Shown: positions 19,153 through 59,260 of the stretch, piece after piece
Numbering within the stretch: the first letter of the stretch is position 1
Layout: the number at the start of each line of letters is the position of its first letter
NCBI GenBank assembly: GCA_963995505.1
Contig: OZ023194.1
Span: 10,412,428 to 10,476,427 of the forward strand
Direction of reading: 5' to 3'
From: Hypericum androsaemum
Taxonomy: Eukaryota; Streptophyta; Magnoliopsida; Malpighiales; Hypericaceae
Length of the DNA: 64,000 nt
Translations under genes and position numbers: made by a program
The notes under the pieces: generated by a model
Told to the model about the DNA's origin: nothing
What the model saw: the letters and a program-made list of their open reading frames with translations, nothing else
Database searches by the model: none

Positions 19153-20026
19153 ATGTCAGTTGCTTCTAGATCCATCATAGCTGAGCTAAACCGTGAGTTA
19201 AAACTCAACGGTGAAAACTATAAGAATTGGAGCATGAAAATCTAATATGTGCTTGAAGAACAAGAGGTTCTGGAGCACATACATGTGATAATGGATGAGC
19301 CTGAAGAAGGCACAACTGCTCAATATAAGTGAGATAAGGAAGCTTATGTTATTTGGAAGAGAAAAAATACTACTGCTCGATTGATCTTGTTGAGTTCAAT
19401 GATGGATGATATCACCAGACAATTTCGCGTGCATGACAATGCGAAAGAGTTATGGGATGTTCTCAAACAAAAATTTAGAAAGCTTTCAATGTCGAAGCTG
19501 CGTGCTTTGACTATAAGGTTTGACACCTTTAAAAAGCGTCCGGAGGTTTCCATGAGGAAACACTTGAGAGTGATGTCCAATATGATCAGTGAACTGGCAG
19601 AGGCTGGTCACATACTCAGCAACGAGCAGCAGATTCAAGCTGTCATCCGTTCTCTACCACCAAGTTGGGAACAGATGAAGATGAATCTGACCCATTCCGA
19701 TCATTTGGTAACATTTGATGATGTTGCCAAACACCTTGAGCTGGAGGAAGATCGCCTCCTAGCTATGAAATCCCACCCTAAAGCCCATTCGATTTGTTCG
19801 ACTGGAAGTGGTGGGAAAAAGAAGAAAGGTAAAGGGAAGGGTAAGTGTAAACAAACTCCAAAGGCTGAAAACCATGGAACCAAGTTGGATGGCTCCAAGG
19901 CTAAAAAGAACAAGCGGTTTAACATTTCAAAAGTGAAATGTTTTAACTGTCAACAGAAGGGACATTTTGCAAAAGATTGCAAGATGCCCAAGCAGGTACA
20001 TCTAAACTCAAGTGTGAGTAAGTTGT
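19153..20026 (+). pseudogene. Copia gag with zinc knuckle, nonsense-mutated
   Basis: From the ATG at 19153 the frame gives a UBN2-type Gag: ELNRELKLNGENYKNWSMKI, then, after two stops (TAA near 19243, TGA near 19332), SSMMDDITRQFRVHDNAKELW, RSLPPSWEQMKMNLTHS and a lysine-rich linker. The zinc knuckle CFNCQQKGHFAKDC (CX2CX4HX4C) is at about 19940-19982. The stops replace codons that are Gln and Arg in the family. A frameshift just after the knuckle puts protease in another frame. Gag forms the particle and binds RNA. Confidence 0.9.
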
Positions 20027-20036
20027 ATGTATCCTC

Positions 20037-22240
20037 TTGTACCCTTCTAATTCTATGTGGGTGATTGATTCAGGAGCGACAGACCATATAGCTAGAGTCT
20101 GTTGTTTGTTCATTGAGTACAGGCGGTTGCCGGCTGGAGCAAAAACTATTTTTGTCGGTAATAACTCGTGCGTGGATGTAAAAGGCCTGGGCACTTGTAG
20201 ATTACACATTCGTGGTGGTCGTGCCCTTCTTTTATATGACGTGTTGTTTGCTCCAGACATACGAAGGAACCTGATCTCAGTTTCGGCCTTAATGTCTTTA
20301 GGTTTTCGGTTGTTGTTTGAGAACGACACTGTTAGATTATTTTTGTATGATGCCTATTTTGGCCTTGGATATATATCGGAAGGTTTTTTGATTCTGGATA
20401 TTGATCCCTGTGAAAGTTTTTCCTTTGTTACTAGTTCAAACTCATCAGAGGATGACATTAAACTATGGCATTCTAGACTTGGCCATATCGGTCAGGATCG
20501 TTTAAACCGTCTAGCTAAGGCAGGACTGTTGGGCAATATAGAGAAATCTATATTACCTAGTTACGTATCCTGTCTAGAAGGAAAAAGTACTAGAAAACCT
20601 TTCGGTACTGGAGCTAGAGCCAAATTTCCACTACAATTAATCCATTCTGACATATATGGTCCAATGAACGAGAGGGCAAGGCATGGAGCATATTACTTCA
20701 TCACCTTTATTGACGACTATACTAGATATGGTCTGATATACCTGATTTCTCACAAGTCTGAAGCCTTAAACTGCTTCATGACATACATGAGTTTTGTTGA
20801 GAATCAGAAGGACAGAAAGATAAAGGCCTTATGAACTGATCGTGGCCGTGAATATCTTTCTGATGAGTTCAAAGCTCTATACATTGAAAAAGGAATTGAA
20901 CATCAGTTGTCCATTCCTTATACACCACAGCAAAACGGAGTTGCTGAAAGAAGGAATAGAACCCTTCTCGATATGGTTAGATCGATGATGGCAGAGGCAA
21001 GTTTGCCTATATCATTCTATGGAGATGCGCTCCTGACTGCCGCATACGTTCTAAACCGTGTTCCCTCTAAGTCTGTTACAGCCACTCCTTACGAAATGTG
21101 GACAGATCGAAAGCCCAATTTATCCTATTTTAAGCCATGGGGGTGTGCGTCATATGTCCATTCTACCTCAAGTGCTTTCGGTAAATTAGGACCGAGAGGT
21201 AGAAAAAGTATCTTTATAAGATACCCAGAGGTATCTAAAGGGTACGTGTTCGTGGGTGAACTGGACAATGGACATGTAACAGAATTTGAATCACTCGATG
21301 TCACATTGTCGAAATCAAAGATTGGTTATCTTCCAACTTTGAAATGAAAGACATGGGTGAAGCGGATTACATACTCGGAGTTAAGATTTCGAGGAATAGT
21401 TCGAAGAGAATAGTGTCTCTTTCACAAGAGACATATATTCGCAAAGTAGTAGAACATTTCAATTGTGATCACAGTAACCCAAAGTACGTCCCATTGGTAA
21501 AAGGTCATAATTTGGGTAAGGACATGTGCCCAAAAATAGCTAAACAACGTAGGGACATGGAGAAGATTCCTTATGCTAATGCAGTTGGATGCCTAATGTA
21601 CGCAATGTTGTGTACTAGACCTGACATTTGCTATGCTGTTGGAATAGCAAGTAGATATCAGTCTGATCCACGTAGTGCTCACTGGAAGGCTGTCAAAGGG
21701 ATTTTGAAATATTTGAATACTACTGCAGAATACTCCTTGTGCTATCAAGGCCGTGACTTGATATTGAGTGGCTATACTGATGCTGATTGGGCAGGCGATG
21801 TGGATAAGAAAAAGTCTACATCTGGATTCGTTTTCTTGTTGAACGGGGGTGTTATCTCATGGAGCAGTAAGAAGCAAACATGCGTATCCCTGTCAACAAT
21901 GGAAGTAGAATATGTAGCTTCAGCTCATGCTGCACAAGAAGCGGTATGGCTAAAAAGATTCTTAAGCCATCTCTCCCTTATCTACTCGACGGAGCCCGTA
22001 AGTCTATTCTGCTACAACCAGACAGTTATAGCATATGCTAAGGATCCTAGATTCCATAGCAGAGCTAAGCATATAGATATTAAATTTTACTTTGTTAGAA
22101 ATTTAATAAAATATAAAGAACTGTGTATGAAACACATATCTACACGAGATATGGCGGCAGATCCAATGACTAAAGCATTACCTCGAGAAGTGTTCGAGAG
22201 ACATGTTAAGTCACTGGGTTTACGACGGTTTCATTTGTAA
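20037..22240 (+). pseudogene. Copia pol: protease, integrase, RNase H; RT core deleted
   Basis: The protease active site WVIDSGATDHI is at about 20055. The pre-integrase region (LWHSRLGHI) follows, then the integrase core with the first Asp in HSDIYGPM, the second in TDRGREYLS and the Glu in NGVAERRNR. A TGA at 20832-20834 replaces an Arg codon. After the integrase end (FESLDVTL, about 21310) the sequence jumps directly to WLSSNFEMKDMGEADYILG, which normally follows the YVDD segment of RT. About 900 bp of RT core, including YVDD, is therefore gone and the frame changes. RNase H (YTDADWAGD) reads intact from 21344 to the stop at 22240. Confidence 0.92.
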
Positions 22241-23446: not shown

Positions 23447-24029
23447 ATGAAACCAAAACGTTTTCCACAAGATGTTCAACATCGTTGGAATTCGACTTAT
23501 GATCAAACTAATAATATTATGTTACAACCTTACCATTGGGACCTTGTAGAAAAACTAAATGAGCTTTTAGAATATTTTAATTATGCTACACATCTTTTAT
23601 CGGGTATTTATTATCCTACATCTCATTTACTATTATGCAACCGTTTTTATGCCAAACATTAAAATTGATAGTTTACAAAAAGATATTATGGATTTAATGA
23701 GTGAGTATAGTATTAGGAATAATGCTTCTACATCTAATGAACCAACTCCCTCTCCCTCACAAGGTGAAAAATTAAGTTTTATGGAAAGATTGCTAATGAA
23801 AAAACAAAAAAGACCCCGAGGAATAAGTTTAACCAATTCGGAATTTGATTTATATCTTAACACACAATTTGATATTCCATTTGTCAAATCTTCTAATTTT
23901 GCTTTATTAGAATGGTGGAACAACCATGTAGAACAATTTCCGGTTATGTCAATTGTTCCAAAAGAATTGCTTGCTTGTCCGATTTCGACGGTTGCCGTAG
24001 AAGTTGGAACAAGCATTTCGAAAATATGA
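23447..24029 (+). pseudogene. hAT transposase, C-terminal part, frameshifted
   Basis: The first segment reads KRFPQDVQHRWNSTYD, the conserved region near the end of the hAT catalytic domain. A frameshift near 23640-23660 separates it from the second segment. That segment ends with the hAT C-terminal dimerisation domain: FDLYLNTQFD, LEWWNNHVEQFP and LLACPISTVAVE. The BED zinc finger and most of the catalytic domain are missing; 23330-23440 holds only a few residues of related sequence between stops. A transposase cuts and pastes the element; this copy cannot. Confidence 0.88.
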
Positions 24030-29635: not shown

Positions 29636-30500
29636 AAATCATCATTATTATATTATACAGGTACCCAAAATTTCATTAAAATCATCATTATTGTTAATTA
29701 TTTTTTACCTTTGAAACTTTGGTTATCACATAAACATAATGGATAGATCTTAATTCTCAAAATATTTTAATTTGCATTCAATGGGTTTCTACTTACTTTT
29801 TTTAATCTTAATTGTGTACAATCCAAAAAAATCGAAAAATAACTAACAGTGACTAAAAGTTAATTGGTCATAATTCTTTTCTTTAGAAAGTCAAAACACT
29901 TTAGATATTGAGACCTTTGTAAAGAATCATCATTATTATATTATACTAGTTACCCAAATCGTCATTAATAGCTTCAACATTATTAATAACTTTGCCTTTG
30001 GAAATTTTGGTTATCATATAAATAATTAATAGATAAATATCAATTCTCAAAATAATTTAATTTGCTTGGTTTATAATTTCTAGAGTTATATAATAGCGTG
30101 TACAATCCAAAAAAAGGAAGAAAATAACTTATTGTTTGACCATATATTAATGGGTCAAATCAATTTTCTTTTAAAAGTAAATGATTAAGATCTTTATTCA
30201 ACATCATCATTGTTATATTATTCTAGTTACCCAAAATTTCATTAAAATCATCATTATTAATAATAAATTTAGTGTTGAAAATTTTGACTATCACGTAAGC
30301 AATTAATCGATAGGTATCAATTCTCAAAAGCTTTTACTTTTCATTCAATTGGTTTATGCATTTTGGATGTATGGAGTCGTAATGGTGTGTACAATCCATA
30401 AAAGGCTAGAACATAACTAATAGTTTGAGTAAAATTAATGGGTCAGATTTTTTTTTAAGTGATTAATCAAAACATTTAAGATATTGTGCCCTTTGTAAAG
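29636..30500 (+). repeat. Three tandem copies of about 290 bp upstream of the neprosin gene
   Basis: Units begin near 29636, 29925 and 30202 with AATCATCATTATTATATTAT. Each contains a TTACCCAAA string, TATCAATTCTCAAAA, GTGTACAATCCA and an ACCTTTGTAAAG-like end. The third unit ends about 12 bp before the TATA box. The copies are well diverged, so the array is old. Confidence 0.8.
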
Positions 30501-30512
30501 TCGATCCAAGTC

Positions 30513-30522
30513 TCTATAAAAT
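30513..30522 (+). promoter_or_regulatory. Probable TATA box of the neprosin gene
   Basis: TCTATAAAATAA about 45 bp before the start codon, implying a very short 5' leader. Confidence 0.55.
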
Positions 30523-30561: not shown

Positions 30562-33500
30562 ATGATGGGTGTCTATGTAATCATCTTCATTTTATGTATT
30601 AGCTCAACTTACCGTGGTGCGATAGGATTAAGAACAAGTAGTTTGTATGGAGAAGAAATCCATGCTAAGTCAAAAAAAAATTACGATACAACAACAAGGA
30701 AAACTGAGGTAACAATTTATACTTTTTATAATTCTTGACCTAACATCCCTATTATATTCTTGGTCAAATGTCTCAAGGTTCTAAATATTTTTGAATATCA
30801 TCTCTATGATTTTTCATTTTTGAAATGTAATTTTGGTGTGCCTCCTCTTTGACTAAATATAACTCTTACGTCTTGTGTTAATGTTATTAGTCATTTTTCT
30901 CTTTTTATTATGTGAAATTACTTACATATCCATAATATTAAATTTCTAAAAATTATAAATTAAAAAATATGAAACTTCCTCTCTCCCTCCACTTTATATT
31001 TATGGGGAGATATAAATAACTAACAACGCTTATAAAAAATAAGTTTCTTTGTCGAAAATTTCTAAATAGAGGTACATCTTTCCATGAAAGTAAAATTCGC
31101 CTTAGACGGAGGTGAACAATTAAGTAAAATTATCATATATCTGAAGGATATCCATCTAATTGGAAATAGTTAGATATTTAAGACTGTAAAAAAAGAGATT
31201 AGTTTTAGTAACTCTATTATATAATTCTAGTGGGCTAGCAATTACGTTAGAATTAGATGAAGAGCTTTTTATGTACCAGGCTTCTTGTTCACGTGAAAGA
31301 GTTTTCATATTTTAGTGCTTCATGTAGCCTTTAATTAAATATACAACGGTGCGATAATTTTTAAACACCCAAAATATTTTAAATCATGAAAATAACTTTA
31401 AAAACACATAAAAATGTATAAAAGAACGTCAAAGAAAACATATTCATATAACCTCAAATCACTCCTTCCTTGCTCAAACTTTCTTTGTCGATATCTATTA
31501 TCTCCATTTCTAAACTAGTGCATTTAGATGACCTCTGTATGCATTTTAGCGATGACTTACCTACTCTCTCCAAAGCTATTAAATCTCTTCTTCTCTCCCT
31601 TCCTATTTTCTTCTTGGAAAGTGATTTTAAATTTTTATGAAGTTTTTAAATTGTTTAATTTATTCATTGATTCCATTTGGCAATTAGATCTCATTTACTT
31701 AATTTAAAGCACGAATATTGTCTTTCAGCATGGATGGTTAGAGTCATATCTCATTTTACTTTGTTACTTTTGTAGTCCTCGTATATTGAGTGCATCGATA
31801 TATATAAACAACCAGCTTTTCATCATCCAATGCTTAAAAATCATAAAATTCAGGTATTTATTTTTTATTTATAGAAGTTAATTTAAACAAAATTTTAATA
31901 GTATTTTTAAAACTATTACACTTATATAAAGATGGAACCGAGCTTCAAAATTGAGAGAGACTATCAAAGAACTTTGAGATATGATAACCGTGAAATATTT
32001 GGATTCTTGGAAGACAATATTTGTCCAAATGGTTCAGTGCCTATTCAAAGAACAAAAGGTGGATTAATGCATCCACTAACGTTGGATTATCCCGGACAAC
32101 ATGTAAGTTTACTAATTATATAATGTATTTATTAATATCTCATGAACCACATCTTATTTACATAAATATACACGTTGGTTTTCTTTTGCATTTTTTGTTT
32201 GTTCATCCAAATTATCCATTAATCATTCATTAATACTCTTTGATTATTTTGCGTGTATTGGTTTCTAGCATGCAAGAGGAAGATAAAATGAATTTAGTTA
32301 AACTGATCCGAGGGTCATTCGTTTAACAGGAAAAAATGTAAATCTTAATTTTCAAAGGATAAATTACACCTAAGTATCTATTGTTTAAGAAATTGTATTC
32401 GGATGTCTAAAAAGTTGCACGTTGGTTCATCTAGGTGATATTTTTAGAAATCATGGAATTATATAATAGCCATCATTCTCTCATAGATACCTTGTATTTA
32501 TTATTTACCAGCCTAAGAAATATTAAAAACACTATAATGGGTATAAGGTTAGTACTATAACAAAATTTCACTTATATAGGTTCGTAGGTTTTTTTACCAT
32601 GTATTTGCACTAATGTTAATTAGAAAAGAGAACAAAATTTCATCAAGTACTATGGATTCTTGTTGTAGATTTTATTGAAAGTACTTTTTTCTAGATCTTG
32701 TAACATTATGAATAATGATCACTATAAAATTGATCAAATGCATGTAAAACTTGACCTTGTAATGTGTTCATAAAATTCTTATGTTGTAAATTCATTTTAC
32801 TTCCACCGTTCCATGCATTTTATTTGTGCTACGTCATTTTTTTTAAATGTAAATTTTTATACCATGCAAGGCTTGAACCTTGGACTCCTTTGAAATTTAC
32901 AACTCCCTGTACCCTACATGCCCTTTGTAAATTCATTTTACTTCCACCCTTCCATGCCTTTTATTTGTACTACATCAATTCTTACATTTGAATGTTCACT
33001 TCACTTGAACGCAACCTCAATCATTAAATTGTAATACGGAATTCAGCGCACTATTTTGAACCCCATAATATCAGTGCAATTTTATACTAGAAGATCCATG
33101 AATTTTATTTTCCTATTAATATTTTTGTCTATTTGTATGACTTAAATAACTATTGTTGTTTCTTTTTGTTTTTTTTGTAACTTGAAAAAAATAGTTCGCT
33201 ACATTAAATACTGTACGTGATCAAGAAACATATCGTGGAGGCATTGCATCTATATTTGTAGAACAACCGTCAATGAAATCTGATCAATTTAGTGGAGGAT
33301 TAATTTGGGTCCAGAGCGGACCACCAAATGAAATTAATATAGTTACTGTTGGATGGATGGTAAGTCTTTTAACTAATATAAAGAAACTTATTAATCTGAT
33401 CAGTTCAGTCTCATAATGATTCATTTCATTGTGAATAGTAAAAGTTACATCTTACTATTTGAAAAAAAAAATTTGGTTTATTAATATTAATATGTAATAT

Positions 33501-36251
33501 ACTTTGTGTGTTCATCGTTATTATCCTATAAACTTGTTTGATAAAATAATGAAATAAACATATGAGACTCATATAAAACTCTTCATAAGTATTCAGAAGT
33601 ATTATTCAAATAGAGGCCTACAAAATATTTAGGAAGAGTCAATTATTTACAAATTTTACTTAACCACCGAAATCACAAGCCTTAAATAAGTTATAGATTA
33701 ATTTCACGTGAATATGAATATCCTACCTTTTGTAATATTTATAAATTTTATTGGACTGAATAAAAGAAAAGAGAAGCAATCTAGAGATTAATTTTGAAAC
33801 TAAAAAATAAGAGGTTTTCGTACAAATAAAGTATAACAAGGACTTAAGTGTCACATAGTCTTATGCAATGTTTTAAAAACCGCGGTCGGACCGCCCGGTC
33901 AGGTACTTCCGGGTGACCCGGTTCATCCGGATCAAAAAAATTAGTGTATATTTTTTCTATTTTATCTGATTTAATTTAGAAACAAAATCTCAACTTCCAC
34001 ATTCGGAGCGTGTACATTACTTTTTGATCACAAAAAACTTATTTTTTAACAATTCTTGATAATATTTTAACTAAGTCAAACAAATTAGATTAATATGTCG
34101 AACCTGAAAACTTGTATAATCATCTTCTTGTTCTTCTAAACTTGTTCAATTCATGTTTGAAGACTTTGTTTAGATAAATTGTATAACAAAGTTGCTAAAT
34201 ATTTGAACTAATTTGATATTTTATCATTTTTATGTTAAATTAAATTTATTAAATATTATTTTAATTATATTAATATAAAATAAATGTCTCGGTCCGACCG
34301 GTGGCCTAACCGGTCTGACCGGGTGAACCAGAAATGTTAAGAATTCCGGTTCGCCTTCCGGGTCGGTTTTTAAAACATTGGTCTTATGTAGTATTAGAAG
34401 ATGTATCTTAATCTCATTTCTTGTCTCATTTGTTTATGAAAGTTAATTTTGTACGTTGCTCACATGAGAATATCTCTTTTTAATAATTAATTCTATGAGA
34501 CAAAACTTACTTTCTTATCAACTAAAAAACAAAATGTATTATTAATCTGAATAAGACATTTCTTTGTTGACATTGTTTATGAAAAATATAATAGTTAAGA
34601 TAGAAAATCTATTTCTCTAACATCAAAAAAGTTATAAAATGACTATGTTTCTGTGCATGAACATACAATTTATGGTTATCAATAAATAGTTAATTTTGGT
34701 AAATTAATTTGCAAGATGTTCAAAGTAGATTAATTTTTCATCAATTCAACAATACATTCAGATCTTACCAAATCATTAGTTAAAAGCTTCTTTTTTCAAA
34801 GCTTGAAATTTAAAAAAGGTAACAATATCTAAATGTCAATATATCCCATTTTTAATGGAAAACCTTAACACAAATCAAAATACTCCAATAACAATAGAAT
34901 CATTGAGTCCTACAGAATTAACGCCACTATTATTTTGCATTATCCCAAAAAATCTACACTCAAATATAGGAACAAGCATAATGTTTTAACTTCTATTAAG
35001 AATTCTCCTAAGATTTTGGAAAATAATTATTAGTGTTGACTAAATTGTATTATTGCATCTGGTTAAAGATGAAAAATGTCATAAAATATTAATTATATTA
35101 CATACTCCTAAGAAATTAATTAATTTAACACTACGAATACCACTTTTTAGGTAAATCTAAAACTCTATGGTGACAATATAAGTCGAATTACGGCATTCTG
35201 GATGGTAATGAATGACTCTTTCAATTTTTAAGTAGATTTGCTCATAGTATTCTATATAATTGTATATATCTCACCAAAACTATGGTATTTGGTGCATGCA
35301 GGAAAATGGTAAAAAAAAAGGTTGTTACAACACATTATGTCCAGGATTTGTGCAAATAAATCGAGAGCACCATTTAGGCGAAGATTTCTCAAATGTGTCT
35401 AGCTCAATAAGACAATTCTCAACCCTTTTTTCAATAATTCAGGTATCATATAATGTAATGAATTACTATAGGAAAATAATTTTAGTTCTTATGAACTATG
35501 ACGATATCTTTGGGCTTAAACTAATTTGAAATTCATTTCATTAGTAAATATATTCTATAATAAAATTATTCAGGTTTCTAAAAAATTGGTTTTAAAATGC
35601 AGTCTAATGAATTAGAATTGGACTCTAATAGGGCTACAACAAAAAGCCATGAGTGTTCTTAAAAAACTCATAATGCGTTTCTTAACTTTCGAAAAAGAGA
35701 TAATAACATTGTGACAAATTATTTATGTCATATTCCAACCATCTTCTTTAATTATTTCTTTCTTGTATTGATGTTATAGGTGAGCTAATAGACAGAGTAG
35801 AAAGAATATCCATAAGAAGAAGACCAAATTTTAATTTTTAACATATTTTGCCCTAATTTTACTGTAATTTTTGTAGGATCCATTATCGGATAATTGGTGG
35901 TTGATGGTTAATGATGATAAGATTGGATATTGGCCAAAAGAACTATTTACTCATCTGAATAGAGGAGCAAATGGAGTTTCATTTGGTGGAATAACATATG
36001 CACCTGTTGGACAATCTAGTCCACCTATGGGAAGAGGAACATTTCCTACTTCCAAAAGTACAACGTCATCAGGCTTTATAAGAATCAAAATCGTTGACGC
36101 CAATTACCATGTTGCTAATATTGACTATAAAAAAACAACAACGTTTATCGACAGTAAAAAATGTTATGGTTTATCTCATTTGAAATATACTCAAAGAAGT
36201 GAACAAGGTTTTTCTTATGGTGGTCCAGGCGGAGACTATTGTGGTATCTAG
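30562..36251 (+). CDS. Neprosin-domain protein (DUF239/DUF4409 family), seven exons, 376 aa
   Basis: Exons: 30562-30708, 31776-31853, 31932-32102, 33195-33359, 35151-35204, 35302-35442, 35877-36251. All introns are GT-AG and every exon is a whole number of codons, so the model reads without a break. Residues 1-22 are a signal peptide (MMGVYVIIFILCISSTYRG). The activation peptide domain includes IECIDIYKQPAF and MLKNHKIQ (about 52-75), then CPNGSVPIQRT (about 103-113). The neprosin domain starts near FATLNTV (133) and includes VTVGWM (about 182-187), GCYNTLCPGFVQ (about 212-223), GYWPKELF and FGGI (288-291). Neprosins are secreted glutamic endopeptidases that cut after proline. The usual Glu of IEAGW and of WGGE, the catalytic pair, is Thr183 and Ile291 here. 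It may therefore be an inactive paralogue. Long AT-rich introns; intron 4 holds a MITE. Confidence 0.87.
32785..32985. repeat. Short direct repeat in intron 3
   Basis: GTAAATTCATTTTACTTCCACC...TTCCATGC.TTTTATTTGT is present twice, near 32786 and 32928, about 142 bp apart. Confidence 0.7.
33866..34380 (-). mobile_element. hAT-type MITE (515 bp) in intron 4 of the neprosin gene
   Basis: Starts CAATGTTTTAAAAACCG and ends TTTTTAAAACATTG, with a perfect 8-bp TSD GTCTTATG (33858-33865 and 34381-34388). Its sequence is the reverse complement of the MITE at 5883-6495 over most of its length (e.g. the stretches around ACATTCGGAGCGTGTACATTA and TTCATGTTTGAAGACTTTG). It is about 100 bp shorter near one end. 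Confidence 0.92.
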
Positions 36252-36309: not shown

Positions 36310-36315
36310 AATAAA
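36310..36315 (+). terminator. Likely polyadenylation signal of the neprosin gene
   Basis: AATAAA about 60 bp after the stop codon, in an AT-rich 3' region. Confidence 0.5.
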
Positions 36316-41863: not shown

Positions 41864-44800
41864 TCATACAAATAGATGTGGGTACTTGGTTTTCATCACT
41901 TCCTCTATTTCCCAAGTTGCCTCAGCCAAGGAACGATTTGCCCATTCAACCTTGACCATCGGAAGTTCTCTATTCCGAAGCTTTCTAACTTCACGATCTA
42001 ATATTCTTATTGGATTCTCTTGATATGTCAAATCTCCACTTATCTCTACTGTCTATGGCTCCAAAATATGAGTAGGATCGTGCAAATATCGCTTAAGCAT
42101 AGAGACATGGAACACTGGATGAATATGTGACAAGGATGGTGGCAAAGCCAATCGATATGCCACTGGTCCAACTCGCTCCAAAATCTCAAATGGGCCAATA
42201 TATCTAGGACTGAGTTTGCCCCTTCTCCCAAACCTCATTGTTCCCTTCATAGGTGAAACCTTGAGAAAAACATGTAGTCCCACATCAAACTCGATATCCT
42301 TTCGTCTCTTGTCTGAGTATGACTTTTGCCAACTCTGGGCTGTTTCCAACCTTTGTCGAATCAACTGTGTCTTCTCATTGGTTTCTTGTACTAAGTCATT
42401 GCCCAATAGTTGTTTCTCACCAACCTCATTCCAACATAACGGAGATCCACATTTTCTTCCATACAAAGCTTCATATGGAGCCATCTTGATACTTCACTGG
42501 TAGCTATTATTATAAGCAAACTCCATCAATGGCAAATAACGATCCCAACTTTCTCCAAAATCAATGACACAAGTTCGCATCATATCTTCCAATATCTGAA
42601 TAACATGCTCAGACTGGCCATCTGTTTGAGGATGAAAGGCCGTACTCAAATCCAAACGAGTTCCCATAGCCTCCTAAAATTGCCCCCAAAACCTTGATGT
42701 GAAATGAGTTCCACGATCAGATACAATTGAAACTGGTACACCATGAAGACGAATAATTTCATCCATAAATATCTTAGCAAACCTACTTGCATCATATGTA
42801 CGCTTTATTGGTAGGAAATGTGAAGATTTTGTCAATCTGTCTACAATAACCCACACTGCATCATAACCTCTTGAGGTAGTTGGAAGCCCTACTAATAAAT
42901 CCATTGTTATCCGCTCCCACTTCCAAATTGGAATCTCTAGAGGTTGTAGTAATCCAGAAGGCCTCTGATGCTCTGCTTTAACCTGTTGACATGTCAAACA
43001 CTTTGAAACAAACTTTGCAATGTCCTTTTTCATACCTTGCCACCAATAATTGCTTCTCAAATCATGGTACATTTTTGTAGATCCAGGGTGCATACTGTAG
43101 ACCGCTCGGTGTGCCTGAGTCAATAATTCCTTTCTTAGATCTCCAACATCAGGGACAACCACTCGAGAACCAAAATACAAGATACCATTAGCACTAAGTC
43201 AAAATTTAGGTAATTCACCCTGCTCAACTTGTTCCATCATCACAATAACCTCTGGATCCTCCCATTGCAATTCCATAACCCGTCCTCGCAAGGTAGGTCT
43301 CATATGCATCTCTGCTAGAAACTTTGGCTGAATTAAGGATTTTTGACTTAAAGCATCAGCTACCACATTAGCTTTCCCAGGGTGATAGTTAATGGTGCAG
43401 TCATAATCCTTAAGTAACTCCGTCCACCTTCTCTGTCTTAAGTTCAAATCTCGTTGCTCAAAGATATACTTGAGGCTTTTATGATCTGTATATATCTCAA
43501 ACTTCTCACCATACAAGTAGTGCCTCCAAATCTTCAGTGCAAACACAACAGCTGCCATTTCCAAGTCATGGACTGGATAATTCTCTTCATGTTTCTTCAG
43601 CTGTCTAGAAGCATAAGCAATAACATTCTTGTGTTGCATAAGAACACATCCCAAACCCACTCTTGAAGCATCACAATACACTGAATATCCACCTGATCCT
43701 AAAGGTAGAACCAATACAGGTGCATGGGTTAACCGATCCTTCAATTCTTGGAAACTCTCTTCACACCTACCCGACCATTCATACTTGGCATTTTTATGAG
43801 TTAACCGAGTTAACGGTGCTGCCAAAGTAGAGAATCCTTTGATAAATCGTCGATAATACCCTGCTAAACCCAAAAAGCTGCGTATCTCAGTAACATTAGC
43901 TGGGGTAGGCCAATTCACAACAGCTTCCACCTTCTTTGGGTCAACTGACATTTCATCTTTAGACACAACATGTCCTAGAAAAGTTACACTTTGAAGCCAA
44001 AACTCACACTTTGAGAATTTAGCATATAACTTTTTCTCTCGTAGCGTCTGCAACACTTGCCTAAGGTGTCTCTCATGATCCTCCTGATCAATAGAGTAAA
44101 TCAATATATCATCAATAAACACAACCACAAACTGATCCAGGAAAGGCTTAAAATTCTGGTTCATCATATCCATAAAAGTAGCTGGGGCATTAGTCAATCC
44201 AAATGGCATAACCAGAAACTCATAATGGCCATATCGAGTCATGAATGCCGTCTTTGGAATGTCCATCTCTCTAATCCGCAACTGATGATACCCCGATCTC
44301 AAGTCAATCTTAGAAACCATTTAGATCCCCACAACTGATCAAATAAATCATCTATTCTCGGAAGAGGATATCGGTTGCGTATAGTTACCTTATTCAGCTT
44401 TCGGTAGTCTATGCACAATCGTAAACTCCCATCTTTCTTCTTCACAAATAGCACTGGGGCTCCCCACGGAGAAACACTAGGCCTTATGTACCCTTTATTC
44501 AACAAATCTTGCAACTGATCTTTCAACTCTTTCATTTCAGCTGGAGCCATACGATAAGGTGGTATAGAGATTGGTTCAGTTCCTGGTTCAAGATCAATAC
44601 AGAATTCAATCTCTCTCTCTGGAGGTAAGCCTGGTAAATCCTCTGGAAATACATCTGGGTACTCTCTCACAATAGGAACATGATCTACCAAAACATCTTC
44701 TTTCTTTATTTCCTTTACCATAGCTAAATAGCTTGCACATCCTTTCCTTAGAAACTTGCTAGCTTTCATGTAAGAGATAAGCTTTGCAGTAGTTACCTTT

Positions 44801-45489
44801 TTCTCACCCTGAAACTCAAACTCTGCCTCATCTGTTGGATGGAAAATCACTCTTTTTCCAAAACAATCCACTATCGCATGATAAGTGGATAACACGTCCA
44901 TACCCACTATGATATCAAAACCATCCATATCCAATATGTATAAATCAGCTGACAAGTCATGCCCACTAATTTGAATATTGCAGGATCTAACAACTTCACA
45001 AACATATACAAACCCACCCGAAGGAGTGGCAACGATCATTGACTCATCCAGACATACAGGCATAGCATTCAAACATCGAACATATTGAGATGACACAAAA
45101 GAGTGTGTAGAACCCGAATCAAATAGAATACGTGCATAAGATGATCCAATTGGAAGGTTACCTGACACCACAGTATTACTAGCATCAGCATCTCTCCTGG
45201 TCAAAGCATACACTCTAGGCTGTGCACCGCCTCCTCCACTATCAGACTTAGGTCCCTCAATCCTCAAACCTACTTCTCTTTGATCAAGTAGATTGCCCTG
45301 CTGAACTACTGGTCGAAGAAAGTGTTGTGTTGGCGGCCTAACTATCAAACTTGCCACTTGCTTACGTTGATCGATTGTAGGACAGTCTTTCACCAAGTGA
45401 CCTTGCATACCACAGCGAAAACAAGCTCCTGTCCTTTTATAACAAATATCTCCAGGATGTTGTTTACCACAACTTTGGCATCTCCTCAA
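41864..45489 (-). pseudogene. Tekay pol: zinc knuckle, protease, RT, RNase H, integrase, chromodomain
   Basis: Reading leftward: zinc knuckle [14 protein letters not shown] (about 45400), protease [13 protein letters not shown] (about 45120), RT start ([18 protein letters not shown]). A one-base frameshift follows at 44299-44320. RT continues with [11 protein letters not shown] (catalytic FIDD) and [12 protein letters not shown], then RNase H ([21 protein letters not shown]). Integrase has its zinc region (HPGSTKMYHDLRSNYWW...CLTCQQVK) and core (DLLVGLP, SDRGTHFTS, HPQTDGQSE). The end is a chromodomain, PIRILDREVRKLRNRELPMV...WEIEEVM (about 42015-41870). Stops near 43199, 42672, 42486 and 42053 fall where Arg or Gln codons are expected. 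Confidence 0.94.
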
Positions 45490-45654
45490 ATTACTGGATT
45501 GGTTCTTACTGAATTGCTGACCACAAAAATCCTTCCCTCTACCAAAACTACCAACTGGTCCTCCACCCTTTGACGATACTGGCTGAATATTGGTCCATCT
45601 CTCTTGCTGTCTAAAGCCTTGGTTGAAACTCCTTTGTGGTGGTTTTTCAAACTT

Positions 45655-46470
45655 CTAAAATTTTGGTTGACTTTGGACCACTCGACGTTCATTATCTCGC
45701 ATCTCCAAGGTTCGAGCACAATCCACTGCAGCTGCATATGTCTCGAAACCACGAGGATACATAACCTTGAACATAGAATCATCAAGTTCATGAATAAACC
45801 TCTTTACCTTCATCTCATCATTGGGAACCAAGTGTTTTGCATACCGTGACAGATAAGTGAACCTCTCATCATATTGCGATACTGTCATCTCTCGGGTCTT
45901 CACCAATTGCTCAAATTCAAAAGCTCGGGCATCATTCAAACTCTCTGGTAAGAACCGATCCAACAAGGCCTTCGTAAAGATCTCCCAAGTCCATGCATAT
46001 GATCCCTCATTTTGGAACCAAACTCCAGCCACACCTACCAACTTAAATGATGCCAACTCCACCATTCGCTCTTTATCACACCTTAAGATTCTTCTCCTCT
46101 TCTCCATCTCATCAATGAATACTTGAGGATCATCACTTAAGCCAGAAAATGTTGGTGGATGCAACTTCAAGAACTCAACCAAAGAGTCATCTTTAGCAGC
46201 CAATGTAACATTCTGCTCTAATTGTGCTTGCTGAGCAGCGATGAATTTCTCCATTGCTTTCATAACTCTGTCTACACCATCACCACCCTGCCTCTCCATC
46301 TCAGAAGTAAGAACATCAGCAACAGGTGGTGGAATCTCATCTCTAGTGACCCTACCAGCAGAAATGGCCTCCACTAGTGGTGTAGTCTCAGATGCAACAT
46401 CATATCTTCGACCTTGGGAGTTTTCACCGTGCTCCCTAACCGTATCCATACCACTACGTGTAACTGTCAT
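45655..46470 (-). pseudogene. Tekay gag (retrotrans_gag), separated from pol by a stop
   Basis: 272 codons open from the ATG at 46470. The conserved core reads FLKLHPPTFSGLSDDPQVFI, LASFKLVGVAGVWF, WEIFTKALLDRFLPES and FEFEQLVKTREMTVSQYDERF. A TAG at about 45655-45657 ends it in the same frame as the downstream zinc knuckle, where a Gln codon is likely ancestral. Gag builds the particle; chromoviral Gag and the chromodomain integrase steer insertion to heterochromatin. Confidence 0.93.
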
Positions 46471-46616
46471 ATCCTCCTATACAAATAAGTCAGAATTAAG
46501 TATACCAAAAGACAACACAACAAAAGAGGTTCAAGGACATGACAAATCCTATGCTCCATTAGACACAACATATAATTCAAATAATAAGCTAGGCTCAAAC
46601 CTAATGCTCTGACCAA

Positions 46617-48755: not shown

Positions 48756-49261
48756 TGACCATTTCTAATAATTTCCACGTTCGCAATTCTATCTTCTTCT
48801 CTTTTTTTTCCTTATTCAACCCTACAAGCTAAAATTCAACTAGCTCTTAATCCGTCTCAAAACTATTTACAAATCTTGTCACTCGACAGCTAAATATACT
48901 TTGCTTAAATTATCAAACTTAATATGGCTAATCATCATATGGAATAGTAAATTCAAAATTTAGGTTAACTTAAATAAAATCACATAACAAATATTTCCAA
49001 TACTGACAAAATCAGACCTATATCAGAGTACCATAAATTCTTGATTTGTTTCGGCCAGATTATTTCATAAATCACAAAACTAAAAGAACAAAGTTGTAGA
49101 TCTAGGTGTTATGAATCTACACAAATTGAAATCACCTAATTTGGAGTCCGGATGAGAAAGTTATGCCTATTTTACCGAATAATGACAGACTAAGCCTAAA
49201 GCCTTCCAAAACCAACCTTATTATGTTGTAACCAATTTGATTGAAGGGTGAGGGTATCACA
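46633..49261 (-). repeat. 5' LTR of the Tekay element (2629 bp)
   Basis: Near-identical partner of 39198-41803; the main length difference is a longer AT run at 48695-48753. Confidence 0.95.
48695..48753. repeat. (AT)n microsatellite in the 5' LTR
   Basis: About 59 bp of uninterrupted AT dinucleotides, against about 24 bp at the same place in the other LTR (41271-41295). Confidence 0.95.
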
Positions 49262-52200
49262 GCCCCAAAGCCACCCTGCTCTCCTACCCTGCTCAATAGG
49301 ATCCTGCACATCAACCAATTTAGTATACACAGAAATCAGAGAAGTACCTTGTAAAGCCCGTGAGTCAACGCCCGCTTTGAACCAGAGGGATGCCGCAACC
49401 GCACATTGGAAGAACAAATGAAGCTCTGATTCTTCGACCCCCCTACAAAAAGGACAACGAACATCCACCTCCATTCCCCTCCTTGCAATGTTAACTCTGA
49501 GGGGGAGATTCCCATCTATCAAACGCCATATGAAAGATCTAATCCTGGGAGGGCAAGAGAGCTTCCACACCTCCCTTCACACTTCTCTCTCATGCTTCTG
49601 AACAGTAGCAAGCTTTGACGTCTCCCACCAACCCTGTAGGTCAATGTAATAGCCTGACCTTACCGTATAAACTTCATCCCTACTGTGTCACCATCGAATA
49701 ATATCTTCTGGAAGTCTAGCACTAATAGGAATAGACATTATTCTCTCAACCATCCATATTCCAATCGGTAGTCCCCTCAACCAAAAGTTCAGACACAAGC
49801 TGAACAGAATCAAAGCCCAGAAAAATGTAACGCGGATGTCCTAACTCAGAGCCAGTCAACCATCTGCTATCCCAAATTTGCACCTTACTCCCATTCCCAA
49901 TCCTCCATTCAAAAGAGCTACTCCCTCCAAAATGCTCCTCTACGTATAACTCGGTTTGTACCCTATGGCGGCTGAAAGAATATCACTCCTAGGGTAATAC
50001 TTAGCTCTTAATACCTGAGCCGGAATTGAGTCTGGCATACACAGTAGATGCCATGCTTGTTTCGCAAGTAAGGCCTTATTGGAACTGATAAGTCTCCTAA
50101 ACCCGAGCCCACCATCCATTTTTGACCTACACATCCTTATCCAACTACGCCAATGCATCTTTTGCTGACCCTCTTTACTACCCCAATAGAAACTGCATAA
50201 CTTACTCTCAATCCTGTCACAAATCTCAATAGGAAGCTTGAAACAACTCATTACATAATTTGGCACAGATAAAAGCTCAGACTTTATAAGTGTTTCCCTC
50301 CCAGCTCGTGATAGGTACTGCTCTTTCCACCCTCCAACTTTAGAAACAATCTTGTCCTCAATATAAGCAAAAATCTGACGCTTAGAATAGCCCACTAGTG
50401 TTAGGAGTCCCAAATAGGTATCACCTTCTTCTCCACGACGCATTCCCAGAACTGAACAAAGTCTTTCTTGGGCTTCCTCATTGATATTTCTGCTGAAATA
50501 GACCGAGCTTTTCTTCAAGTTGACATGTTGACCTGATGCCCGAGAATAAGTGTCCAATAAAGATAAGATATGCCTGAGTTCCTCTTCCGTCACTCTAGCA
50601 AACAATAAATAATCATCTGCAAAGAAAAGATGAGTTATAGTTGGGGTGCTCCGCACGACCTGTAGACCATATATTTATCGAGTAACTTCTGCCCGCTTGA
50701 TCAGGGCCGCTAATCCTTCTGCGTAGATTAGGAATAAATACGGAGATAAAGGATCACCCTGCCTTAGTCCCCTTCCTAGAATGAAAGATTCTCCCACCTG
50801 TCCATTGACCTGCACTGCATATCTGACTGTGCACACACATCTCATAACCAGGTTAGTGAAGGAAAGCTGAAAATCCAAAGCCAGCAAAGTCTTTTCCAGA
50901 TAATCTTATTCTATCCTATCATACGCTTTCAACATGTCTAACTTTAATGCGCACCACCCCCACTTTCCCAAAGTTTTCTTCTTTAGATAATGATAGGACT
51001 CGAAAGTAATAAGTGCATTATCAGTAATAAGACAGCCCGGAATGAATGCCCATTGGCTCTCATGTATAATCTCATTCAAAAAAACCTTCAACCTGTTCGT
51101 AATAGTCTTAGTCACAATCTTCATAATAACATTGCATAAGCTAATAGGACAGAACTCCAAACAAGTCGTTAGACGCTTAACCTTTGGGATCAGAGTAATA
51201 ATAGTCTCATTAATAAAAGAGGGGTCAGCCCCATTATTAAGCACAGAAAGGGTAGTTTGGGTTACCGCATGACCGACCGTTTTCCAATGTTTTTAGCAAA
51301 ATAAGGGTGGCAGACCATCTGGACCTAGTGCTTTTGTAGGAAGCATCTCATTTAGTGATGCATGAACTTCCTCTTTGGTGTATGGCTTATCAAGCTGGTT
51401 GTTCATCTCGTCAGTCACCTTCTGTTCCATCAAGCTTGTCACCTCCTCCACCTGCGTAACAGACTCAGAAGCAAACAAGTTAGTATAAAAATCTCTAAAG
51501 GACTTTTCCAAACCTGACCAGCCCCGTACAACTTGACCATTTGAGTCCTGCAGCTCAAGAATCATGTTTCAAACACCCCGATTCCTAGCTTTTTGGTGAA
51601 AAAACTTTGTATTACGATCCCCTTCTCGGAGCCATTTGACACGCGACCGCTGAGCCCACATTGCCTCTTCCCTAGAGAGCAGTTCTTCCCGTTTCTTAAT
51701 CAGCTCATCCAGAATGCGCTTCCTATCCTGTGTCAAACATTGGTCCTGCAGAAGACCAATACGCTTTTCCAAATCCCCCTTCAGCCTCCGAACATTTTCA
51801 AAAACTGCCTTATCCCAATTTGATAGTTGTTGAGCACAATTAGTCACCCGAGAAGTCCATGTAGAATCTCCCAAAGAAAGCCACCCATGCTGAATAACCC
51901 GCTCGATATCCTCATGCCTCTCCCACATCTGCTCATATCGAAAGCACCTCGGGGGAGGCCTAGTATCCTCAACTCGCAAGGAGCAAACCAATGGAGCGTG
52001 GTCTGACCCTAATCGTGGCCGAGCCTCCACCCACGAATGCAGATAAAGCACAGACCAATCTAATGTAGTGAACACTCTGTCCAGCTTGCACTCAATGTGG
52101 CCCTCATCCTCCTGGCCATTAGTCCAAGTATACTTTAACCCTATTTGTTTCATCTCTGAAAACCCACAGAATTGAACGACTTCCCAGAAAGCATCTATAC

Positions 52201-52675
52201 GTCTCTGATGAACAAGATTGCCCCCTCTTTTCTCTGTATTGGACAAGATCTCATTGAAGTCGCCACCACACAACTAAGGTAGAGTAGACCACTCCTTTAA
52301 CTGTCAAAGCAGAGACCAAGATAAATGCCTCTCTTCAGTAACCGGCCATCCGTAAAAACCTGTAAACCGCCAATGAAAAGAATCCAACACCTCCATATCT
52401 ATATGATGACTCGAAAAGGAATAAAGAGTAATATTCAAATCACGCCTCCATAACAGTACGAGTCTGCCACTACGCGCTCTACCCGTACCATTACAAGATA
52501 CGTACACACCGCACTCAAACCCCAATTTCCACTTAAGACTTTCAGCCTCCACTTCCGATAGCTTTGTTTCTGACAAGAATAGAATCTGGGGATTGCAGGA
52601 TCTTAATAACCTGCGAACCTGTTGAACTGCCTCTGGGCTCCCCAGACTACGGCAGTTCCACCAAATGACATTCAT
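49262..52675 (-). pseudogene. LINE ORF2: endonuclease, reverse transcriptase, zf-RVT (5' part)
   Basis: From ATG 52675: endonuclease motifs WNCRSLG, LSETKLS, GDFNEILSN and GSDHAPLV (about 52010). RT motifs follow, ALGPDGLPPLF, TLIPKVK, LKLDMLKAYDRIE (first Asp), GRGLRQGDPLSPYLF and LFFADDYLLF (catalytic FADD, about 50615). Then come GYSKRQIF and the zf-RVT domain (LSCPPRIRSFIWRLIDGNLP, CPFCRGVEESELHLFFQC). All segments lie in one frame and are interrupted only by single stops (for example near 52303, 52276, 51567, 51290, 50903, 50672, 49938). ORF2 nicks the target and copies LINE RNA; this one is dead. Confidence 0.93.
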
Positions 52676-53405
52676 TGTTCCTGGCGGGTACCTAGAGCAG
52701 TACCTAAAGCTTTCATAACACCAGATCAAGATGTTAAGAACAACGAGGCAAAGAAAAACTAACCAGTAAGGGAGGGTGCAAACAATGATATGACAAAAGC
52801 AGCCAGATCCTAGACAATGAGAGATCAACCAAATGAGTAGTAAAGCACAAAGCAGAACCCTTACAAGAGAAAATGTAACAGATCGAGGACAAGCAGATGA
52901 ACAAAGCGACATAAGACGAATCAAAGATCTAGTATGCAGAGAAGACGAACCACCTGACCTAACTGAACGGAAGCCAAGCAGATAATTAAACAAAACGACA
53001 CACTGAAAACTTAATAATCAAACGAAACCCTAAACTATGCAAACCTAAAGCAAGCGAAAACAAAAGGGATACTAAGAACGAAACCTAAATATGCAAAAAG
53101 ACAACCCTATTAAACAAAGAGACAAAACTCTAAGACAAGTGTAACAAAATGAAGCCACAAACGGAAGACCAAAGGAGAACAACGAGAAATAAAACAACGA
53201 GATCAGGAGTGGGACGGAAGTGTGGAGATGATCAAAAACGTGAGCGCGGTGGAGATTGAGATGGTAAAATTGAAGCGGATCAGCTAGAAACCCTACGAAG
53301 GGAGACGGCTCTATAAAAGAGACTAAACCCTACGAAGGGAGACTAAAAATTAACTCGTATGCTATGTTATGTGAGATCTAGGTTATCCATAATTAACTTA
53401 GTTAG
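52676..53405 (-). other. 5' region of the LINE, no ORF1
   Basis: The 730 bp before ORF2 give one open frame that is hydrophobic and unlike any Gag-like ORF1; no CCHC knuckle or DUF4283-like sequence is visible. The string CTCCCTTCGTAGGGTTT (minus strand) occurs twice near 53295-53345. It probably acts as the internal promoter/leader region. Confidence 0.65.
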
Positions 53406-55182: not shown

Positions 55183-57621
55183 TCGACTTGCGGTCCGAAT
55201 ATCACCAAGTACACATGCACTCGGACGATGTCAAGAAAATGGCATTTCGCACTCACCATGGTCACTTCGAGTTCCTCGTTATGCCGTTTGGGCTCACTAA
55301 TGCACCGGCAACTTTTTAGGCACTAATGAACAACCTCTTGCGTTCCTTTCTCCGCCGGTTCGTGTTGGTCTTCTTTGACAACATCCTAATATATAGCCTG
55401 ACATGGTCTGAGCATCTAAAGCATGTTCGTTTGGTATTTGCCTTAATGCATCAACATCAGTTCTATCTTAAGAAGTCCAAGTGCACGTTCAGGGCTTCCT
55501 CGGTGGCATATTTAGGATACATAATTTCAATAGAAGGAGTCACCATGAATAATGACAAAGTTCACTCGGTTATGACTTGGCCGATACCTAGGTCAGTTCG
55601 GGGGCTACGAGATTTTTTGGGACTCGCAGGCTATTACCGCAAGTTTATACAAGATTTTGGGATAATTGTGGCCCCTCTCAGAAAATTGTTGCAGAAAGAG
55701 GCGTTCAAGTGGTCTGAGGAAGTCGAGCATGCCTTCACCGCCCTAAAAAAGGCTCTCTCCTTCACTCCGGTTCTCCAGTTACCAGATTTTACGCAATCCT
55801 TTATTGTCAAATGTGATGCCTCAGGTAGCGGTTTTGGCATAGTACTTCACCAGGGTGCGGGACCCCTGGCTTTCTTCAGCAAACCCATAGCGGCCCGACA
55901 TGCTAAACTGGCTGCTTACGAGCGAGAGTTTATCGGTCTCATTCAGGCTGTTAATCATTGGTGACCATACCTTTGGGGATGTCCTTTTACTGTCCGCACG
56001 GACCACTACAGCTTGAAGTTTTTGTTAGATCAACGACTCTCCACAATTCCATAGCACCAATTGGTGAGCAAGCTGTTCGGGTACAACTTTCATATTGAGT
56101 ATAAGCCTGGCCGCCTTAATATTATGGCCGACGCCTTGTCACGACGTGACTTTGAGCTCGAGGAGTTGATGGCTATCTTGGGTCCTAGTTTTCAACTCTG
56201 GGATGACTTACGACTCGAGGTTCCCACAAATCCAGAGTTATGCGCCTTGGTGGCAAAAATTGAATCGGGACAGCTAGGCGCCCTGTGGAGTATTTTAGAT
56301 GGTTTGGTGTTGTATGGGCGATGAGTGTTTGTGCTGACTTCCTCTACCATCTTGCCATCCTTACTCGAGGCTGCGCATATGACAGGATATGAGGGTGTCC
56401 AAAAGATGCTACACCGACTTTGAGCTGACTTTCACGTTCCCCGTGCTAGAGGGTTAGTACATGAGTTCGTTAAGGCCTGCGCCACCTGTCAGTGCAACAA
56501 AATGGAGCACCTCCATCCGGCCGGATTGCTGCAGCCATTAATGGTCCCTTCGTAAGTCTGGGCTGATATTGCGATGGATTTTGTCGAAGGCCTTCCGAAA
56601 GTTCATGGCAAATCTGTCATTTTGACGGTGGTGGATCGGTTTCCAAGTAGGCACATTTCATACCTCTAGGAAATCCATACAGTGCAACTTCGGTGGCACA
56701 AGTCTTCTTTGATGGGATCGTACGCTTACATAGATTTTCTAGTTCTATTGTTAGTGATAGCGACCTGGTCTTCATTAGCAACTTTTGGAAAGACCTCTTT
56801 CAGATGGCTGGAGTCCGCCTCAACATGAGCTCAGCCTTTCATCCCCAGTCGAATGGCCAGTCTGAGGTCACCAACAAGGTCATTGCTATGTATCTTTATT
56901 GCTTGACAGGCGATCGACCCAGGGAGTGGCTCTCTTGGTTTCCATAGGTGGAGTATTATTATAACACCTCCTTTCAGACATCACTCTGCACTACCCCATT
57001 CGAGGTGGTCTATGGTCGTTCTCCTCCTCCACTTTGCACATATCAGCTTGATTTTGCTTCCGTAGCAGCCATAGATACAAACCTACAGAACCGGGATGAA
57101 TTTTTGGCCAAGATCCGTGATCGTCTTCTCCATGCTTAGCAGACTGCACGTAAGTATTATGATGCTCATCATCGGGACGTCCATTTTGCTAAAGGCGACT
57201 GGGTTTGGCTTCGTCTATTTCATCGACCCACATCTTCTCTTTCGGGGCACGTATCCGGCAAGCTCGGGCCTCGCTACTTTGAGCCTTACCAGATTGCTGA
57301 AAAGGTAGGGGCCATCACTTACCGCCTCATTTTACATGTTGGTACCCGTTTGCATAGTGTTTTTCAGGTGGGATTGCTCAAACCATTTCATGATACACCG
57401 CCGATGGCACCTCTAGCGTTACCTCCTACCAAGCACAGACGTGCTCTTCCAGTTCCTGCCAACATTTTGAAAGCCGCTCTCCGTCGTGATGTCTGGCACA
57501 TTCTAGTTCAGTGGTAGGGATTGTCCGAAGTTTACACCTCCTGGGAACCCCTGGACGAGCTTAGGTGTTCTTATCCTGCTTTTCAGCTCGAGAATGAGCT
57601 ATTTTTCCAGGAAGGGAGAGC
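55183..57621 (+). pseudogene. Reina-type chromovirus pol, 3' half (RT to chromodomain)
   Basis: It begins abruptly at [11 protein letters not shown] in RT and continues [17 protein letters not shown], then LVFFDNILIYS, where the second catalytic Asp is Asn, and [12 protein letters not shown]. RNase H (KCDASGSGFGIVL) follows, then IN zinc region remnants (CATCQCNKMEH) and the IN core (MDFVEGLPKVHGKS, SIVSDSD, HPQSNGQSEV). The IN C-terminus (YYNTSFQTSLCTTPFEVVYG) leads to a chromodomain with VQW-GLSEVYTSWEPLDEL (about 57510-57570). Many stops and frameshifts occur. The missing front half is found inverted at 59261-61721. Confidence 0.9.
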
Positions 57622-58048
57622 TGTTATGTGGGGGAAAGCATATCAGCGGCGCAAGACGAAAAGTGGCTAACAGTCGCCATTAGCAAATTTGAATCAGGAG
57701 ACTTCATTAGTTGGCTATTTACTATTCTGTTATTTCCTATTCAGTTCATTTGCTTCCTTGAGAGGTTTACCTCGATTAGGACTAGTATTGTTTAGTTCCT
57801 TTTCCTATTATGTTTTGGTTTCATTTCCTATTCGTAATTGTAAACGCTTGGCTATTTATAGAGCTTGCGTGCTTTAGGTTTAGGCATCAATAAATAATTC
57901 AGAAGTCTTCCTTACCTTCTCTTTCTCTCTGTTCCTCTCTTCTTCTTCTTCTTCTGCTGTTCCGGCAACATCACAGGAAAGCAAGGTAAACAATCTTAGC
58001 CTTCTGCGGGTCACGGGTACAACTTACGAAGTACCCCAGCCCATCCCA
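57622..58048 (+). repeat. 3' LTR of the Reina element (about 427 bp)
   Basis: Starts TGTTATGTGGGGGAAAGC after a purine tract (GGAAGGGAGAGC). It ends near AGCCCATCCCA, judged from its inverted partner at 61301-61721, where the primer site follows. It contains a TTCTTCTTCTTC tract near 57940. Confidence 0.85.
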
Positions 58049-59260
58049 TTTGCCAAGAAGGCCGAGAAATAGAAAGAAAAAAAAATAAGGGAGAGGTTGA
58101 GTTCGTCGAGACTGACAAGTAGTTTTTCATCTTTTGATGTTGCCTCAGATTCGATGCTGTCCGATAATTCAACTCTTGTGCAGTTGGATAGTCATTTTGT
58201 TTTGAGCTTCTTTACTTTTGGTTGCAGGAATTGCTGTAAAAAATTACCCAAGTTAGGAACTTGGTCGTGTCATTGCTGTCCTGGGATGACCATTCTTTAT
58301 TCTGTTTGGTCTTTGCTTAAGCTTATATGGAGGAAATATAAAAAAATATGAGTCGATCCAAGTGGTAAGGGACTTGGATACTCTTAAACACCCAATATGC
58401 ACTTGCATTGACCTTATGTAATAATACGGAAAAGGAAAAGACAAGGGGTTCCCAGAGAACTACGAGATGAAGGAGGAAAGGACGACCTTGATCGGCTTAC
58501 AAACAGAAAAGTGGGGCGGGGCAGGGCGATTGGCGGTGGCTTGGGTTTGTCGCAAGCCATCCCTCTTGCTCTTTCTTTCCCTCATAGACAAGAGCAACAG
58601 TGCTCTTTAAAGAGCCAAAAATGGAGAAAGAAGTGCGTGGATGGCCTTCAGTCCATGAGGATTATGTCTTGGGTTGTGGCGGACATGGCCGGCTGAGAGG
58701 GATGACTCGACTGCAACCTTTCTCCTCACTACACCACATGACTTCATCCTCGGCATCGTTGCAAATCCAAATTAACCCAACGCCATTGACGGAGGAAAAT
58801 AAAGAGAAAAGGAACGGGGAGGATTTAATTGGCTCCCGATTCACAAAGGCAGAACCCAAAGGTAAGGGTTTTGACGCGGTAGCTCAATTGAGCTCTTGAA
58901 GGGGAAAGGGGAGAAGATAGGGTTTTGTGTTATTGGGATTAATAGAAATCATAGTGAAAAAGAGTGGCTTAGCGCATTCTTTGGTGAGGATTATTGGGTT
59001 TTACCGTTATTGGGATTATTCCCAAATAAAATCAATTTTCTCCTATTTTTGGTGATGCCCATTCTTGATTTCGAGGGCAACGATAGGGAGGGGAAGGATT
59101 GAGCAACGAATGGAAGAAGAAAGGGGGAAGAGGAGAGAGATGGGTTGTACACGTGGCACCACGTCATCAGATAAATCTGATGTGGCTGGTTCACGTGGCC
59201 GGTTAATGTTTGGGCAAGACGGGCAAGGTCTGGGCAGCTGTCCAGACCTTTAATTGATTT
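58049..59260. other. No gene recognised between the two Reina halves
   Basis: Short frames on both strands without recognisable domains. 58500-58560 and 59085-59190 are G/A-rich, and 59147-59200 has several CACGTGGC/ACGTGGC strings. Nothing coding could be assigned. Confidence 0.5.

Follow-up and report, generated by a model that had tools for sequence, protein, structure and literature searches.

The window analyzed here, a 64,000-nucleotide stretch of the Hypericum androsaemum genome (contig OZ023194.1, positions 10,412,428 to 10,476,427), contains a single neprosin-family gene amid transposon fragments. The gene lies on the + strand at 30562-36251, and its seven exons join into an uninterrupted reading frame that runs for 376 codons to a stop codon, encoding a protein in which both catalytic glutamates of neprosin are replaced. 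Exon 1 (30562-30708) encodes a hydrophobic N terminus, a putative signal peptide. The neprosin propeptide domain begins in exon 2 (31776-31853), which carries Cys55, and continues in exon 3 (31932-32102), which carries Cys106 followed by a short linker. Exon 4 (33195-33359) belongs to the neprosin domain and has Leu168, Trp170, and Thr183 at the neprosin positions Gln173, Trp175, and Glu188. Exon 5 (35151-35204) is followed by exon 6 (35302-35442), where Cys213 and Cys218 are kept and neprosin Tyr214 is gapped, and by exon 7 (35877-36251), which contains Ile291 (for Glu297), Cys348, Cys374, and the stop. All six introns (1067, 78, 1092, 1791, 97, and 434 bases) have GT-AG borders and are in phase 0, and their AT content is 71-88% compared to 63-69% in the exons. 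The last five exon junctions fall within stretches alignable to relatives; exon 1 (49 residues) was scarcely alignable and has little support from them. Judging from the hydrophobic N terminus and the family membership, the protein is probably secreted. A search with 122 query proteins detected no second neprosin-like stretch in the window at an E value of 1e-3.

Two Pfam domains exceeded their gathering scores and stood in the family order, which places the protein in the Neprosin/DUF239 family: Neprosin_AP (PF14365; E = 1.4e-16, 61.5 bits compared to a cut-off of 39.2) and Neprosin (PF03080; E = 5.2e-62, 209.4 bits compared to a cut-off of 22). Seven exons, an unbroken 376-residue frame, and these two domains were what the original prediction had claimed, and all were borne out. 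NCBIfam, a prokaryotic library, gave no match for the protein. The two longest PDB chains of neprosin matched with E values of 1.6e-41 and 3.5e-41. Cys55, Cys106, Cys213, Cys218, and Cys348 align to five disulfide cysteines of neprosin; Cys374 lies beyond the aligned neprosin segment and was assigned to a sixth by position only, and the remaining neprosin cysteine is replaced by Ile324. The protein would be expected to adopt the neprosin fold, as carried over from the structure predicted for a relative, P0001.

The catalytic residues are largely changed. Neprosin Glu188 corresponds to Thr183 (codon ACT, 33345-33347, + strand) and Glu297 to Ile291 (codon ATA, 35991-35993, + strand) in all three alignments that contain neprosin, and the register at both sites is fixed by the adjoining GW and GG residues. 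Thus, the earlier claim that both glutamates are replaced, in positions running parallel to the neprosin numbering, was confirmed, with Glu at neither column. A sequencing slip is an unlikely source of these replacements since the Thr and Ile codons are 3 and 2 bases, respectively, away from GAA. The protein lacks the Glu188/Glu297 pair of the eelysins (neprosin-type glutamate peptidases) and half of their essential Gln173/Trp175 pair, Gln173 being replaced by Leu168 and Trp175 kept as Trp170. It also lacks the Gln/Glu pair of the eqolysins (family G1), with Thr and Ile at the columns reported to be equivalent in the two families (PMC9343461). Further changes are Thr186 to Ile181, Tyr136 to Phe133, and Trp294 to Phe288; Tyr220 is kept. 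The residue opposite His134 varied with the alignment (Gly130, Gln131, or His132), and we draw no conclusion from it. The known pocket columns read Leu, Ile, Thr, and Ile, without an acid. In neprosin, the mutants E188Q, E297Q, Q173A, and W175A are reported to be inactive, and H134A, Y136A, and Y214A to lose ∼80% of the activity (PMC9343461). Three of the four residues whose mutation abolishes activity are changed here, and by analogy with these mutants, catalysis through the known glutamate-pair mechanism is very unlikely.

The absence of the pair is not private to this gene. Three protein searches returned 225, 4165, and 1260 matches, and the best 120 from each gave 315 different proteins, a sample selected by resemblance to two seed proteins and a single alignment, from which intermediate lineages may be missing. 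The relatives were plant proteins, the closest of which, among the best 120 of the 225 matches, were 43-44% identical and from Brassicaceae. With gaps counted as absent, the 120 proteins nearest this gene comprised 1 with both glutamates, 14 with only the first, 9 with only the second, and 96 with neither, compared to 114, 3, 1, and 2, respectively, among the 120 nearest neprosin. Setting aside 33 proteins longer than 480 residues left 282 relatives of 280-480 residues, in which both glutamates were present in 108, the first only in 30, the second only in 12, and neither in 131; 1 was gapped. A tree of 128 representatives plus this gene and neprosin, from which eight columns at or adjoining the active site were omitted, split with a support of 100 into 51 rows (49 with both glutamates, 1 with the first only, and 1 gapped) and 79 rows that included this gene (53 with neither, 15 with the first only, 11 with the second only, and 0 with both). 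The identical split was found in a 284-row tree with ten columns omitted (109, 1, and 1 rows compared to 132, 29, and 12), in which 0 of 173 rows on this gene's side had both glutamates. Constraining this gene to the complete-pair side was rejected (approximately unbiased test, p-AU 0.009; 54 rows picked from the 130). The long proteins, mostly two-domain, were scored against profiles built from each side. Eighteen of the 33 were closer to the pair-less branch, none with both glutamates within one domain; among the 15 closer to the complete-pair side, 9 have a both-glutamate domain, 2 have Glu at every readable site, and 4 lack a complete pair. These four (P0106, P0128, P0155, and P0156) are separate further losses or annotation faults. 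The association between the pair and the branch is therefore strong, yet the complete-pair side has losses of its own.

Some trends within the two sides were apparent. First, by source names judged by eye, the 79-row side consists of eudicots only, including Papaver and Ranunculus relatives, whereas the complete-pair side holds moss, Amborella, grasses, and eudicots; two long monocot proteins, P0258 and P0299, also fit the latter. Given this distribution, the loss of the pair is probably old. The pair would be ancestral and broken early in eudicots, and since no sampled member of the branch has it, most likely in an ancestor of that branch. Inside the branch, gains of Glu are not distinguishable from losses. 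Second, this gene has changed further than many of its kin: Gln173 is kept in 38 and Gln188 is present in 37 of the 79 branch rows. Its own clade holds proteins from Brassicaceae, Tarenaya, legumes, Rhamnella, Corylus, Dipteronia, and Liquidambar. Third, Gln at the 188 column combined with Glu at 297 was seen in P0052, P0063, P0078, P0256, P0272, and P0275 (legumes), P0113 (Macadamia), and P0077 (Cardamine), and a 10-row clade from Papaver and Macleaya (P0035, P0042, P0058, P0059, P0060, P0263, P0296, P0306, P0310, and P0314) has Glu188 but not Glu297. Finally, the pair-less branch was about twice as deep as the other side (median tip depth in the 284-row tree, 1.84 compared to 0.94 changes per column). 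A search of the open-access literature found no publication describing members of the neprosin family that lack the two glutamates.

Despite these replacements, the gene does not look decayed. Conservation reaches 90% at 80 columns of the complete-pair side; at 23 of these it is at most half in the branch, including 173, 188, 214, 294, and 297. Where the two sides conserve one common residue (36 columns), this gene keeps it in 35. It also keeps 54 of the 56 near-invariant columns of its clade and 9 of the 61 most variable ones, compared to an expected retention of ∼41% under drift along its end branch; the other 25 clade rows keep 0.89-1.00 of their near-invariant columns. In 500 neutral simulations of its own coding sequence, made with substitutions only, the stop-free fraction was 0.27 at 0.02 substitutions per site, 0.042 at 0.05, and 0/500 at 0.1. 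Long decay is thus disfavored because the frame is too clean and the family-conserved residues are kept, and judged from these columns, the gene is not drifting freely. An open frame with the fold-defining columns retained is also what would be expected of a pseudopeptidase under selection. We claim no excess loss at the active site: its columns were not lost significantly more often than other conserved columns in the clade (p = 0.14), the branch (p = 1.0), or the complete-pair side (p = 0.09). The original prediction of a pseudoenzyme under constraint rather than simple decay therefore holds insofar as the glutamates are gone, the conserved residues kept, and the frame clean; what must be revised is that the loss is shared by the branch, and the inhibitor or decoy role that it proposed is conjectural. 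A different reading is that the gene was a working member of the branch that lost its role so recently that stops have not yet accumulated. Transposon fragments surround it and an element sits within intron 4, its end branch is long (0.84-0.89 changes per column), it has no close homologue among the matches listed, and its active site is more altered than in many kin. However, the frame and splice sites are intact, a neutral frame stayed stop-free in 4.2% of the runs when simulated to 0.05 substitutions per site but never at 0.1, and near-invariant columns are retained as in relatives. A very recent silencing, which would escape both tests, is possible; overall, we regard silencing as unlikely.

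We consider it probable that the gene encodes a secreted neprosin-fold protein of an old eudicot branch without the pair, which is unable to cleave through the glutamate pair and which most likely binds a ligand outside the cell. The protein would consist of the propeptide and the beta-sandwich of the neprosin fold. The propeptide would most likely stay on, without maturation, and the former substrate cleft on the front sheet would hold the ligand, which might be a peptide rich in proline or a constituent of the wall. A broader suggestion, which we offer only tentatively, is that an ancient eudicot branch comprising many "neprosin PEP catalytic domain-containing" proteins turned into fast-evolving secreted binders, with some legume members eqolysin-like in their Gln/Glu and this gene an extreme case whose pocket is largely hydrophobic. 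DUF239 genes as a group, of a branch not stated, are reported to be enriched among Arabidopsis central-cell transcripts (PMC3266888), and therefore reproduction is one place to look.

Several observations weigh against a binder. First, the structure was predicted for P0001 and not for this protein. Second, the branch is mixed: the first glutamate is retained in 15 of the 79 tree rows and the second in 11, and Glu stands at the 297 column in 9 of the 25 rows of this gene's clade, several with Gln at 188. By analogy with eqolysins, some members of the branch may have remained enzymes that use Gln/Glu, although the activity of such relatives is in question because E188Q neprosin is inactive. Third, the linker between the propeptide and the neprosin domain, 19 residues here compared to 30 in neprosin, is no mark of the branch. 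It has 29-38 residues in 14 of the 25 clade rows, 19-21 in 9, and none in 2, and its median is 31 in the branch compared to 34 on the complete-pair side. Finally, the authors of work on LOTR1 of Arabidopsis make the case that it acts as a protease by means of two cysteines (PMC8794472), and a like-spaced pair occurs in this protein. An alternative is that proteins of the branch act on their substrate, by cutting or modifying it, with residues other than the glutamate pair. Trp175 and the fold cysteines are retained, several legume kin carry Gln/Glu as eqolysins do, and LOTR1 is reported to require C255 and C260 (PMC8794472), which match Cys213 and Cys218 by spacing, unaligned. However, the neprosin cysteines aligned to Cys213 and Cys218 form a disulfide (PMC9343461), the pocket columns offer no acid, and E188Q inactivates neprosin, so that we hold this mechanism to be improbable. 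The protein might instead regulate active neprosins by competing for substrate or by pairing with active paralogues. Outside this family, pseudopeptidases can control the activity of their active relatives (PMC11266112), and the fold is retained in the predicted structure of the relative, but such pairing would have to persist across a very divergent branch (1.84 compared to 0.94 changes per column), and we give this idea little credence.

The surroundings of the gene are rich in repeats. The element in intron 4 (33866-34380) is 515 bases long, is bounded by inverted ends of 17 bases, and has a target duplication of 8 bases (GTCTTATG), from the length of which it appears hAT-like; another copy, at 5883-6378 on the opposite strand, shares 94% identity with it over 19-515. 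A hAT transposase dimerization fragment occurs at 23571-24029. Directly 5′ of the gene, at 29637-30500, are three degenerate repeats, 277-290 bases apart. Broken copia-type and gypsy-type retrotransposon parts lie within 19333-22240, 42053-46476, 49196-53017, and 55320-60072, and 49196-53017 contains a stretch tentatively labeled long interspersed nuclear element (LINE)-like, with Pfam support below the cut-off. On the + strand, a TATA-like word (30515-30521) precedes the start codon by 47 bases, and an AATAAA polyadenylation-like word follows the gene at 36310-36315; either may be a chance match. Such words are frequent in AT-rich DNA.

The many neprosin-domain genes of plants carry peptidase names in databases; Arabidopsis is reported to have 43 proteins with both neprosin domains (PMC8794472). 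If a whole eudicot branch indeed lacks the pair, these names mislead, and a residue check is needed before a member is called a protease. The branch would also be a source of natural active-site variants in a poorly studied peptidase class.

Compared with known systems, the protein resembles Nepenthes neprosin (PDB 7zu8, 7zva, and 7zvb), a glutamate prolyl endopeptidase, in its two-domain order, its GYWP, GGPG, and GC-C-PGF motifs, the five aligned cysteines, Trp175, and Tyr220. It differs at Glu188 (Thr), Glu297 (Ile), Gln173 (Leu), Thr186 (Ile), Tyr136 (Phe), Trp294 (Phe), the gapped Tyr214, and the shorter linker. It is unlike the eqolysins, for example SCP-B (PDB 2ifr), to which it is 11-12% identical and whose Gln/Glu pair it lacks. 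With LOTR1 and its Arabidopsis homologues, it shares the domain order and an extracellular location, predicted here; LOTR1 is a published case in which only uncleaved protein was detected, and that paper names no glutamate pair, the string "glutam" being absent from its text (PMC8794472). Another parallel is offered by Brassicaceae DUF239 proteins such as P0001, which is 43% identical and falls in a common clade (support 99/98), with a short linker and an incomplete pair. P0001 differs in having Gln188 and Asn297 and in keeping Gln173, Ser186, and Tyr214.
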